Origin: a virus
Strand: one strand, 5' to 3'
DNA length: 29,631 nucleotides
IMG/VR virus record: IMGVR_UViG_3300027805_000060
Coordinates: 1-29,631 of that record
Shown: one piece after another, positions 2,980 to 7,284 of the stretch
How positions within the stretch are numbered: position 1 is the first letter of the stretch
Layout of the letters: each line of letters begins with the position of its first letter
Translations under genes and position numbers: made by a program
The notes under the pieces: model-generated
Told to the model about the DNA's origin: nothing
The model's database searches: none
The model's input: only the letters and a program-made list of their open reading frames with translations

Positions 2980-3065
2980 TGTTTAAAATGTTTTAAGGTG
3001 TGTAATAAATGCCTAATTTGTCATAGGCTTGGTTTAAAAAGTGTTTCATAGTATGAATTTTTAAA
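2980..3065 (-). other. Leader between RNA elements and transglycosylase gene
   Basis: AT-rich spacer in a non-coding gap of 292 bases. Read on the minus strand it has a 5-bp hairpin (3011-3015 with 3024-3028) and a possible 18-codon open frame from the ATG at 3049 to a stop at 2993. No clear promoter box was found, so the transglycosylase is probably made from a message that runs through the two tRNA-like elements. Confidence 0.3.
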
Positions 3066-3166
3066 ATATCATTTGGCATCGGATTGAACGACACTTAAGG
3101 TTGAAGATTTTAAAATGATATAATTTTAAAAACCTTGTTTTTCGCCACATAAACTACAAATGATAT
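3066..3166 (-). ncRNA. tRNA-like structured RNA, copy A
   Basis: Read on the minus strand this 101-nt element folds by eye into: a 10-bp closing stem (3157-3166 with 3066-3075); the two bases UA at the place of tRNA positions 8-9; a 4-bp D-arm GUUU/AAAC with loop AUGUGGCGAA, including the GG of tRNA positions 18-19; a third 6-bp stem AAGGUU/AACCUU carrying an 8-bp inner hairpin (3123-3130 with 3109-3116); and a 6-bp T-arm with the loop UUCAAUC, which fits the T-loop consensus. There is no 7-base anticodon loop and no encoded CCA end. A second copy follows at 3177-3265 with compensating changes. It may be a processed RNA, a decoy or mimic of tRNA, or a cis-acting element. Confidence 0.65.
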
Positions 3167-3176
3167 AGAAGTTTAA

Positions 3177-3265
3177 AACCCTGCGGTATCGGATTGAACG
3201 ATACTTAAAACTTGAACATTAGCATTGATTAGTTTTGTTTTTCACCACATAAACTACACAGGGCT
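3177..3265 (-). ncRNA. tRNA-like structured RNA, copy B
   Basis: This 89-nt copy begins 7 bases beyond the stop codon of the helicase-methyltransferase gene. On the minus strand: a closing stem CCCUGUG/CGCAGGG (3257-3263 with 3179-3185), extendable by G-U and A-U; UA; the same 4-bp D-arm with loop AUGUGGUGAA; a 6-bp stem AAAACU/AGUUUU with an 18-base open loop; AA; and a 6-bp T-arm GUAUCG/CGAUAC around UUCAAUC. Compared with copy A, the closing stem and third stem differ completely in sequence but keep pairing, and the T-stem differs by changes that leave G-U pairs. Conservation is highest in the D-loop and T-loop, which interact in true tRNA. Neither copy has an anticodon arm. Confidence 0.65.
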
Positions 3266-3271
3266 ATATTT

Positions 3272-5773
3272 TTAGATACAATCAAATAAAGTAGGTACAT
3301 TGATTTTATACTCAATGCTTTTAAGATAGTATAAACCATCATCGTAATACTCAGGATTTAATTCTACTGATATACATTTACGTTCCATTTCTAAACACTT
3401 ATAAGCCGTAGTAAATAAACCGCCGAAAGGGTCACAAACTAAATCACCTTTCATTGTAAATCTGTTTAAAAGCCTAACTACTATATCAAATTGAAGCGGG
3501 CAAATGTGTTTTTCTTTTTTTCTATTTGCCTGGTTAGCATTTAAAGTAGCCATTCTATTAACATCGGTCCAAACATCCTCACTTGTACTATGAACTGGCA
3601 ATGTCATAAATAAAGAACTTAGCTTATTTTGTGATTCTAAGTCTTCACATGCTTTTAAATGTTCATCAAAACTATAAACATTTGACATATCGTGTTTTTT
3701 CCAATGCTTACAAATCTTTTCAACGTCCATTTGCTTCAATTCGTTATAACTAAAAAATCTATTACCATCGCTTTTCCAATAAGCATGGGCATCTAATTGC
3801 CAATTTGCGCGGGTATAATCGTCTTTTGTTTTTGTGCATGGTTCATCTGCATAGGCATTATCCATTGAAGATGGAGCTTTTCTAAATAATAAAACATATT
3901 CAGGTAAACCTACGCCCATTTTTGTAGCATCTTTGCATTGCTCAGTCCAACCTAAACGATATGTTTGGTTATTTTCACGAACTACATCAGTAGTTACTGT
4001 AATTTTACCAATAAGATAAAATCCATGCTTTTGAAAATGCGCTACAGTTTTGCCGCTAAAATCATCTATTGTAGTAAATGAAGTTCCATTCTGATAACTA
4101 TAACGAATCCTATCTTTAACGTGTATAGCTGCAATTTTACCAGGCTTTAAACATCTTAATAAATTAGGTGTTAAGTAGTCCATTTGTTTAAAAAACTCAT
4201 CATTGCCATGATTATGACCCATATCATTATAATTATCTGAATATTCGTAGTGGTCACCAAATGGAATTGATGTTAATATCATATCAAAAATATTACTATC
4301 AAATTCATTATGCATTATTACAGTATCTTCATTAAATACTTTTGCATTGCCAATTTGAGCATTTCTTCTGTTGTTAAAAATTTGTCTTTTCATGTCTGAT
4401 TTAATTTTATCTGTGTTTAATCCGTATTCTCTAACTAAATTTATCATTTCGGTTTGTAATTCAATATGCTTTATCCATTTTTCTTTTAATGCTTTTAATA
4501 CATCCTGTTCATTTTGAGTAAAAATAGCATAAACGTTCACTTCATTTTCTTGCTTAAATCTATAACATCTATGTATAGCTTGTATAAAATCATTAAACTT
4601 ATAATCAATACCGCAAAAAATCATATTATGGCAGCTGTGTTGAAAATTACAACCTGAACCAGCTATTTTAGGTTTTGTGCTTAGTATTTGATATTTGTTA
4701 TGTTTAAAGTCTATAAGTAGCTGTTCTTTTTCACTGTTATCCTGTGACCCAAAAACAGATTTTATATTATATTCTTTAAAAGTTCTATTTAATTCTTGGC
4801 GCTCAGCTTCTAAATGATGCCACAAAATCCAATTTTTATCAGAATTATTTTTTACAATTTCGTAGGCTTTTTTTATTCTTACATTTATTGATTCTGATTT
4901 TTCGCGGCTAACATCTACAAGACTTTTTGTAGTATCTTTAAACATTACTAATTCACCTTTTTTATTATATATTTCGCCATCTGAATTATTTTGTACTAAT
5001 ACTTCAATAAAGTTCAATTTTGGTAATAAATAGCCAGTATCATCATATCCTAAATCAGAAGGCTTATTTATAAAAACGGCCCATGTAGATACCCATTTCC
5101 AAAACTCTTCTTTTTTATTTGGATATAAAGTTAAATGACCTGCTTTTGTGCTATCACGTTGGAAAAACCTTGTTAAGGCGTGACCTCTGTCAATTACGCT
5201 AAGATAATCAGCATAATTAAGAATTTCTATAAAATCATTTGGTGTTGGTGTTGCAGTAGCTACAAATCTGTAATTAACTTCTCTAAAGTGATTTAAAACA
5301 TAATTAGTAGTTTCAGTCTTTAAGTTTCTAAGTATTGATGCTTCATCAAATGAAACGCCGCCAAATAATTCAGCTGTAACATCGCCTTTTCTGATACGCT
5401 CATAATTTGTTACATAAATTATATCAGCGTTTACAGTATCAACAGTATCTGAATCTGTAATGTATTTTATAGATTTTTCAGGATATAGAAATTCTAAATC
5501 ATCTTTAAATTCACCTACAACGCCAAGTGGCATAACAATTAAAAAAGGCTTTTCAGTTATACGCGAAACCTGAACAGCTATTTCAAGTTGCATCATTGTT
5601 TTGCCTAATCCAAAACTTGCAAATATTGCACGCCTACCGCCTGATATAGCCCAATGTACTATATCTCGCTGATGCGGTAATAATTTAGGTGATAGCGATT
5701 CTATGTCTATTTCAGTTCCATAGTCTTGCGCTATTACAATCTTCCGTTCCAAAAATTCTAAATACTCATTCAT
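3272..5773 (-). CDS. SF2 helicase fused to adenine-type DNA methyltransferase
   Basis: An 833-residue two-domain protein. The N-terminal half is an SF2/SNF2-like helicase: Walker A FGLGKT at 54-59, DEAS at 143-146, motif III TATPTP at 173-178 and a motif VI form IHRCYRFKQ around 400-408. The C-terminal part is a beta-class DNA methyltransferase: motif IV appears as TSIPF at 501-505 in place of DPPY or SPPY, and motif I as DPFGG at 781-785, with the SAM-binding VELN downstream at about 803. Fusions of this kind are known in phages and probably modify phage DNA against restriction; N6-adenine versus N4-cytosine cannot be settled here. It overlaps the upstream helicase gene by four bases. Two tRNA-like RNAs follow its stop. 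Confidence 0.9.
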   Translation of the reverse strand: MNEYLEFLERKIVIAQDYGTEIDIESLSPKLLPHQRDIVHWAISGGRRAIFASFGLGKTMMQLEIAVQVSRITEKPFLIVMPLGVVGEFKDDLEFLYPEKSIKYITDSDTVDTVNADIIYVTNYERIRKGDVTAELFGGVSFDEASILRNLKTETTNYVLNHFREVNYRFVATATPTPNDFIEILNYADYLSVIDRGHALTRFFQRDSTKAGHLTLYPNKKEEFWKWVSTWAVFINKPSDLGYDDTGYLLPKLNFIEVLVQNNSDGEIYNKKGELVMFKDTTKSLVDVSREKSESINVRIKKAYEIVKNNSDKNWILWHHLEAERQELNRTFKEYNIKSVFGSQDNSEKEQLLIDFKHNKYQILSTKPKIAGSGCNFQHSCHNMIFCGIDYKFNDFIQAIHRCYRFKQENEVNVYAIFTQNEQDVLKALKEKWIKHIELQTEMINLVREYGLNTDKIKSDMKRQIFNNRRNAQIGNAKVFNEDTVIMHNEFDSNIFDMILTSIPFGDHYEYSDNYNDMGHNHGNDEFFKQMDYLTPNLLRCLKPGKIAAIHVKDRIRYSYQNGTSFTTIDDFSGKTVAHFQKHGFYLIGKITVTTDVVRENNQTYRLGWTEQCKDATKMGVGLPEYVLLFRKAPSSMDNAYADEPCTKTKDDYTRANWQLDAHAYWKSDGNRFFSYNELKQMDVEKICKHWKKHDMSNVYSFDEHLKACEDLESQNKLSSLFMTLPVHSTSEDVWTDVNRMATLNANQANRKKEKHICPLQFDIVVRLLNRFTMKGDLVCDPFGGLFTTAYKCLEMERKCISVELNPEYYDDGLYYLKSIEYKINVPTLFDCI

Positions 5774-7284
5774 AATTTGGTTTGTTTTCTATGTGTTAAA
5801 AAATTATTCCATGCTCTTTTAGCGGCTGCTTTTAAATCATTCTTATCGGTAGCATCCAAACCGTATTTCTTATTTATCCAGTCAATACTGCCGTTTTCTT
5901 TTAATACACGGCTTTCAAATATGTAATAAACCCAATTATCTTTATGGCCGCGCTTGTTCTTCAGTTCCCACAAATCCGCTAAACTTCTACTTTGCGCTTG
6001 TTCTGATTTTTTAGCTTTTAATAGTTCATCAAGTGTTGTTGTATCTTTTACCGCAACGCCTGCAACTTCTTCAATCTGTTGTATTTTTATTTCTGGTTTA
6101 GCACCGCAATATGGGCATTTAGATTCGGTTTTAACGTAAGTTCTTAAACATTCGGTGCAATCTGCATATTCGTTTTCAAATGTTTCTGTATCGCGTTTTT
6201 TCTTTTGCACGCCTTCCAATGACCATTCGCGCGTTTGTAGTGGGTGACCGTGCATTTTCTGATTTCCTACGTGGTCCAAAATCAAACAGCGGCTTTTACC
6301 TTCCATTGGCCTTAAACCGCGGCCAACTATCTGTAAGTATAACGATAGCGACATAGTACGGCGAAGCATGCCAACAACTGAAACGGCTGGTATATCTGTA
6401 CCTTCACTTATGAGGTCACAAAATGTTACCACATGTAGCGCGCCCGATGCTAAACTTTCAAATGCATGTTTAATTTCATAATCTTCTAAATTACCATGAA
6501 CCGCAACCGCCTTAAAACCTGCAGCATTAAACGCCGCCGCTACATTTTCCGAATGCTTAATATTTACGCACGAATAAATAGCAGGTTCACCAGGTGCCAA
6601 ACGTTTATATTCATCTACTGCGTTACCTGTTATCGCTGGTTTGTCCATTTCTTTAAATAATTCATCCGCTTTATATTCGCCGTTCCTATCTTTTTTAATC
6701 TTTGTAAAATCGGCCAACGGTTTGAAGTTATAATATTCAGGCATAACAAGATTTCCCATTTGCACTAATTCAGCTGGTAACGGTCCTAAAACTAAATCAG
6801 AAAACACATCGCCTAAACCTTGACCATCGCCGCGCCATGGTGTAGCAGTAACTCCAAGCACATAAACCGATTCGCCGTAAAAATCTAAAATATCTTTCCA
6901 TGTTCCCGCGTTGGCGTGGTGCGCTTCATCAATTATCAACAGGTCGGGCGTTGGCACTTCGGTTAACCTATTTTTAAGGCTTTGAACGCTGCAAACTTGC
7001 GCGGGTAAATAATACTGCTTTGGCCTGTTACCAGCTATAAAACCATGCTTTAAACCGTATCTTCTGCAACGTTCAGATATCTGATTCACTAAGTTCTTTT
7101 TATGTACTAAGAAATAAACGCGCTTACCTTTTGCTATTGCTTCTGATGCCATATAAATAAACGTTTCAGTTTTGCCGCCGCCGGTAGGTAACACAAACAA
7201 TACTTTTTTATTACCGCTTTTATAACTCTCTCTTATGTCGCTTACGCTTTTCGATTGATATGGCCTTAGCTGTATTGTGTTCAT
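5770..7284 (-). CDS. SF2 DEAH helicase (type III restriction-like) with zinc finger
   Basis: A 504-residue DNA helicase of the COG1061/ResIII type. Motif I PTGGGKT is at 33-39, motif II DEAH at 119-122, motif III TATPW at 146-150 and motif VI QIVGRGLRP at 318-326. A four-cysteine zinc-binding knuckle (C376, C379, C390, C393) follows the helicase core, and a basic C-terminal region ends the protein. No nuclease domain is seen, so it is not a complete restriction enzyme. The start is fixed by LRPYQ, the Q-motif, which begins at residue 6. It overlaps the XRE gene by 65 bases and the following fusion gene by four. Role inferred: phage replication or recombination. Confidence 0.88.
   Translation of the reverse strand: MNTIQLRPYQSKSVSDIRESYKSGNKKVLFVLPTGGGKTETFIYMASEAIAKGKRVYFLVHKKNLVNQISERCRRYGLKHGFIAGNRPKQYYLPAQVCSVQSLKNRLTEVPTPDLLIIDEAHHANAGTWKDILDFYGESVYVLGVTATPWRGDGQGLGDVFSDLVLGPLPAELVQMGNLVMPEYYNFKPLADFTKIKKDRNGEYKADELFKEMDKPAITGNAVDEYKRLAPGEPAIYSCVNIKHSENVAAAFNAAGFKAVAVHGNLEDYEIKHAFESLASGALHVVTFCDLISEGTDIPAVSVVGMLRRTMSLSLYLQIVGRGLRPMEGKSRCLILDHVGNQKMHGHPLQTREWSLEGVQKKKRDTETFENEYADCTECLRTYVKTESKCPYCGAKPEIKIQQIEEVAGVAVKDTTTLDELLKAKKSEQAQSRSLADLWELKNKRGHKDNWVYYIFESRVLKENGSIDWINKKYGLDATDKNDLKAAAKRAWNNFLTHRKQTKL

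Follow-up and report, generated by a model that had tools for sequence, protein, structure and literature searches.

A family of predicted tRNA-like RNAs without an anticodon arm in uncultured phages

tRNA mimics without an anticodon are rare, and the main bacterial cases are the bacterial Y RNA YrlA and the tRNA-like domain of tmRNA. In YrlA (Rfam RF02553), D-, T- and acceptor-like arms mimic tRNA while a long stem joining the 5' and 3' ends tethers the Ro protein Rsr, and the tRNA-like module binds PNPase (PMC8394870). The tmRNA tRNA-like domain and the mammalian mascRNA (MALAT1 3' tRNA-like RNA) are tRNA-like folds with an absent or reduced anticodon arm that are processed by RNase P. Among phages, T4 encodes in its tRNA cluster two stable RNAs without known function, rnaC (species 1) and rnaD (species 2) (PMC9697503; NC_000866). 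Phage-supplied tRNA(Tyr) can act against the Septu defence system, which cuts the tRNA variable loop, and the authors of that work propose that it is a decoy or a supplement (PMC13096335). Here, we describe a previously unlisted family of predicted small RNAs that keep the shape of tRNA but in which the decoding arm is replaced by a different hairpin.

The analysed window is the 29,631-nucleotide stretch of the IMG/VR record IMGVR_UViG_3300027805_000060. It is a fragment of a tailed phage (terminase, tape measure, sigma-70 factor, DnaB-like N-terminal domain, VRR-NUC). An initial annotation of positions 3066-3265 had described two adjacent tRNA-shaped elements on the minus strand, without an anticodon arm and with compensating changes between the copies. 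This observation is confirmed, except that the span adds a few bases at each end and that the 9-10 bp closing stems are not a family property. Copy A (3179-3263, minus strand, 85 nt) reads CCCUGUG-UA-GUUU[AUGUGGUGAA]AAAC-AAAACU[18 nt]AGUUUU-AA-GUAUCG[UUCAAUC]CGAUAC-CGCAGGG and copy B (3069-3163, minus strand, 95 nt) reads UCAUUUG-UA-GUUU[AUGUGGCGAA]AAAC-AAGGUU[28 nt]AACCUU-AA-GUGUCG[UUCAAUC]CGAUGC-CAAAUGA. The closing stem can extend to 9 bp in copy A and 10 bp in copy B, but only 7 bp are kept across relatives.

In copy A, the 5' strand of the acceptor-like stem (3257-3263) pairs with 3179-3185 and is followed by the U8-A9 linker (3255-3256), the D-arm (3237-3254) with G18G19 in its 10-nt loop (AUGUGGYGAA in the two copies), the third arm (3207-3236), made of a 6-bp stem and an 18-nt apical region with the motif GCUAAUG, two A residues, and the T-arm (3186-3204), made of a 6-bp stem and a UUCAAUC loop. 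In copy B, the acceptor-like stem (3157-3163 with 3069-3075), the D-arm (3137-3154), the third arm (3097-3136; 6-bp stem, 28-nt region with an inner A/U hairpin) and the T-arm (3076-3094) follow the same order, and the T-stem contains two G-U pairs that exist only in minus-strand RNA, as the initial annotation had stated. In order to test whether such structures could arise by chance, we scanned the window with a generic tRNA-scaffold descriptor containing no family-specific sequence (7-bp acceptor, U8, 4-bp D-stem with A14 and GG, 5- or 6-bp T-stem with UUCRANY). It found exactly these two places, and none in 100 first-order Markov simulations of the window. The unconstrained minimum-energy fold of either copy is however not the cloverleaf, so that the cloverleaf rests on comparative evidence.

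Pattern scans of IMG/VR brought in at least 37 other viral contigs with the element. With the window this makes 38 records and 46 copies, of which 37 are distinct sequences. A covariance model trained only on these elements (R1) scored copy A at 91.6 bits and copy B at 88.3 bits, and found one locus per record, as a tandem pair about 100 nt apart in 8 records, and no second locus. The scans were anchored on the D-arm or T-arm, and more diverged members may thus exist. Scans relaxing the D-stem or D-loop gave only the known members plus non-elements, suggesting that within IMG/VR the D-arm is nearly fixed. Outside these records, R1 used with strict filters gave no hit in 395 Bacteroidota genomes, the only pattern hits in bacterial genome contigs were chance matches lacking the rest of the element, and there was no convincing blastn hit in 50,697 phage records. 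A bacterial or prophage origin was rejected on the grounds of the searches in bacterial genomes. All relatives are uncultured contigs, many of them partial.

Third arms, which carry 16-50 nt in place of a 5-bp anticodon stem with a 7-nt loop, fall into four types: short (28 nt between D- and T-arm), A (with GCUAAUG), B (with an inner A/U hairpin) and long C (records L069-L072, L075, L080 and L085; L numbers designate individual viral records or loci). Type-A relatives of copy A are present in the 7 other tandem loci and in several single-copy loci.

Over 36 distinct sequences, 97.2% of base-pair cells are standard and 14 of 23 pairs show changes on both sides, compared to 7.9 in shuffles. None of 500 shuffles was as good on any measure, and sliding the partners dropped pairing to 40-53% (42-53% for a slide of one column). 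In the acceptor-like helix 95.2% of cells are paired and 6 of 7 pairs covary, in the third arm 5 of 6 pairs covary across the family, and the T-stem, which also covaries, is paired in 100% of cells. The D-stem never varies, so that this helix has no covariation support. G-U cells outnumber A-C cells 83 to 4, which fixes the RNA strand. Type C third arms have their own covariation: they contain an 11-bp helix with a bulged G and an inner 5-bp helix, 100% paired with 7 doubly changed pairs overall, while their inner and apical loops are constant. In L053 (2556-2744, minus strand) the two tandem copies have an identical interior, copy B having taken over that of copy A, but different and correctly paired acceptors, as in a gene conversion with the acceptors protected. 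Together, these results show that selection on the fold is active.

They also make it very unlikely that the elements are relic tRNA genes losing the anticodon arm under no selection. This possibility could have been suggested by the two short members (L011 and L036) that ARAGORN calls "tRNA-???" and by the presence of other odd tRNA-like genes in the same phages, but it is disfavored by the compensatory changes in acceptor, third and T stems, the invariant D-arm and the L053 copies. These other genes form a second set of tRNA-scaffold genes, at L026:1713-1827(-), L048:643-760(-), L084:346-436(+), L274:83-186(-), L439:63-171(+) and L440:55-189(+). They have nearly constant tRNA-Leu-like outer halves (AGTCCTG or AGTCAGG acceptor, D-arm, ACAGG-TTCRAAT-CCTGT T-arm, no CCA) around a 40-85 nt centre that differs completely between phages. 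Five of the six lack an obvious anticodon loop, the one of L084 has an 8-nt loop, and all six score above the Rfam tRNA cut-off.

The conserved columns coincide with tRNA positions. U8, A14, G18, G19, G53, U54, U55, C56, purine 57, A58, pyrimidine 60 and C61 are kept, U8-A9 is invariant in 36/36 sequences, and the T-loop (UUCRAUY) fits the tRNA consensus UUCRANY. The D-stem and 8 of 10 D-loop columns are invariant, variation being confined to columns 17 and 20, which also vary in tRNAs. R1, which has seen no tRNA, ranked the tRNA-Lys, Thr, Ile, Glu and Leu of the unrelated phage locus L391 as its five best matches, in register, and four of its best five matches in the T4 cluster are tRNAs. The D-arm is nevertheless conserved to the letter, more than a tRNA fold requires, which suggests a binding partner.

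The almost invariant 20-bp core (TAGTTTATGNGGYGAAAAAC) could alternatively be a protein-binding, recombination or attachment site in DNA, the RNA pairing being secondary. Exchange does occur here, since copy B of L015 (5894-5988, plus strand) joins the 5' part of a B element to the 3' part of a short-type element, leaving 5 of 7 acceptor pairs. However, pairs covary over 80-100 nt on one strand with G-U pairs, and no bacterial genome searched carries the sequence as an attachment site, so that we regard a DNA-level element as very unlikely. A coding function was also rejected. An ATG in the D-loop opens a short frame (M-W/R-R-K-T...), but it stops after two codons in copy A of the window and after eight in the short type, frames through the T-arm differ between A and B, and the variable D-arm bases are codon first positions while third positions are fixed.

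The host is probably a flavobacterium. Upstream of copy A lies a helicase/DNA methyltransferase fusion gene (3272-5773, minus strand; Pfam N6_N4_Mtase and Helicase_C), whose stop codon is 8 nt before the element and whose product is 76% identical over its full length to those of the Flavobacterium columnare phages FCOV-S1 and FCL-2, relating the window to Ficleduovirus phages. Downstream, an 18-codon ORF (2992-3048, minus strand) precedes a lipoprotein-like gene, C0 (2524-2979, minus strand), with homologues in Cellulophaga phages, some annotated lysozyme. In almost all loci the element lies between genes on the strand of the upstream gene, but the genes differ: several methyltransferases, helicase, ParB-like, Gp157-like and glucosaminidase-like genes upstream, and C0, methyltransferases and others downstream (names other than the Pfam hits are our reading of the sequences). 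The gene slot just upstream (3272-7284, minus strand, in the window) differs between close relatives (DNA methyltransferases, PAPS-reductase-like and ParB-like genes, others) and looks like an accessory-gene exchange region.

Of 80 viral loci encoding C0, only 28 hold the element and 52 show none. In several of the latter the upstream stop overlaps the C0 start by 4 nt; in L314 and L316 the ATG of the 18-codon ORF overlaps the upstream stop (ATGA), an empty junction, and FCL-2 has an overlapping gene directly after its helicase-methyltransferase. Phages of the same group thus live without the element. Cis-regulation of C0, which is adjacent in most but not all element-bearing phages, was therefore rejected as the sole function. 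In L069 and in L071 (read from the sequence in the latter) a terminator-like hairpin and convergent genes follow a type-C copy. The element is thus a self-contained module, gained or lost without a fixed partner gene, that behaves as an independent RNA gene rather than as a cis-regulator. Only L084 has a consensus Bacteroidota promoter nearby (TTG...TATTTTTG), followed about 5 nt before the element by a strong terminator-like hairpin (CCGCCTG...CAGGCGG, T8; L084:2014-2113, plus strand, for the whole arrangement) that was read from the sequence, its loop being too long for our scanner, and that is possibly an attenuator controlling the element. In the 37 other loci no such promoter was found, so that most copies would have to be made with the upstream gene and, if they act as small RNAs, be cut out.

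This favors to some extent a cis-acting processing punctuation, close to the proposal of the initial annotation that the element is an RNase P/Z substrate that processes the operon. In this view the fold would be a cutting site that separates and stabilizes the flanking messages, the excised piece being waste. Elements mostly start 3-30 nt after a stop codon and end about 20 nt before a start codon in otherwise packed operons. On the other hand, no gene pair is conserved around the element, two type-C copies are at operon ends, relatives do without it at the same junction, and the conservation of third-arm loops within types is not needed for cutting. Punctuation remains possible but is unlikely as the main function.

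A second alternative is that the RNA occupies a host enzyme recognizing the tRNA elbow or acceptor (RNase P, RNase Z, a tRNA-modifying enzyme or a tRNA-targeting defence protein). The elbow nucleotides and the whole D-arm are the most conserved part, patchy presence would suit an accessory counter-defence gene, and the Septu case is a precedent for tRNA-shaped counter-defence. However, no defence or anti-defence gene is consistently adjacent, and on sequence evidence alone we consider this reading doubtful. A decoy for tRNA-cutting defence enzymes, as suggested in the initial annotation, is not excluded, but the anticodon loop that most such enzymes cut is exactly what is missing, making anticodon nucleases unlikely targets.

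The interpretation given in the initial annotation is thus only partly supported: "tRNA mimic" and "new phage RNA family" hold, whereas its processing and decoy proposals are weakened. Two outcomes named beforehand as refuting it, an absence of homologues with conserved pairing and a match to a known non-tRNA family, did not occur. What our analyses establish is the strand, the conserved fold with its tRNA-like core, the replacement of the anticodon arm by one of several hairpins, and the status of a discrete module between genes in uncultured tailed phages that probably infect Flavobacteriaceae. The rest is inferred, with decreasing certainty: that the element is transcribed with the upstream gene; that host RNase P and RNase Z or 3' exonucleases cut it out through its acceptor, T-arm and elbow; that the elbow protects it as a stable small RNA; and that it acts in trans, the tRNA shape being scaffold and address label for a host or phage factor that reads the elbow and D-arm, and the third arm being the type-specific functional part. 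We favor this model with moderate confidence, keeping in mind that the 13-bp acceptor/T stack, stem extension beyond 7 bp and absence of CCA may impair RNase P/Z cleavage or CCA addition.

A more speculative and tentative possibility is that these phages use the tRNA fold as a natural modular scaffold, in which a fixed core would supply processing, stability and docking to a host tRNA-binding factor, and the anticodon arm would be an exchangeable slot for functional hairpins acting in trans, perhaps against host defence or translation control. The tRNA-Leu-like genes would be a further use of the same principle. The family is compact, strongly supported by covariation, present or absent at otherwise identical junctions in close relatives, and related through a neighbouring gene to culturable Flavobacterium phages, so that the question of what a phage gains from a tRNA that cannot decode can be put to experiment. 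It also shows that genome annotation misses such RNAs, the Rfam tRNA and YrlA models overlooking them all and ARAGORN nearly all.

We finally compared the element with the known systems. No paper in the library searched, which is limited to open licences, describes this family, and Rfam searches at gathering and relaxed thresholds returned no match, whether to group I introns or to other families. YrlA is the nearest in kind, sharing tRNA-like D and T arms without an anticodon. However, RF02553 run directly does not match, both ends of the present element close the acceptor-like stem instead of forming a terminal Ro-binding stem, and no TROVE/Ro gene (PF05731) was found in the 38 records, some of which may be partial. 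T4 rnaC folds with a tRNA-type T-arm (CCGGG-UUCGAAU-CCCGG) and large non-anticodon hairpins, but rnaC and rnaD are 139 and 119 nt long with another architecture, and R1 scores rnaC at 6.1 bits, a noise level, and does not list rnaD. For tmRNA, ARAGORN detected no tag-peptide frame, no open frame is shared by all members (frames of A and B differ and the short type stops early), and there is no SmpB context; mascRNA is mammalian, and Rfam finds neither here. With canonical tRNA (RF00005) the element shares the 7-bp acceptor, U8-A14, D-loop G18G19, T-loop UUCRANY and G53-C61. Nevertheless, ARAGORN finds no tRNA in the window, and over 10 records no element matched RF00005 even at E<=10, apart from an 8.6-bit T-arm fragment in one. 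CCA is not encoded, but neither is it in the tRNA-like genes of related phages. The element has no anticodon stem-loop and a 2-nt connector before the T-stem, and its 6-bp T-stem, with a sixth pair that is G-C in 36/36 sequences, gives a 13-bp instead of a 12-bp acceptor/T stack. It therefore cannot decode, and by inference from tRNA-Sec such a stack would be expected to disfavor ordinary elongator-tRNA functions. tRNA-Sec itself reaches 13 bp with an 8-bp acceptor and has a 6-bp D-stem and a UCA anticodon, whereas here the stack is 7+6 bp, the D-stem is 4 bp and there is no anticodon.
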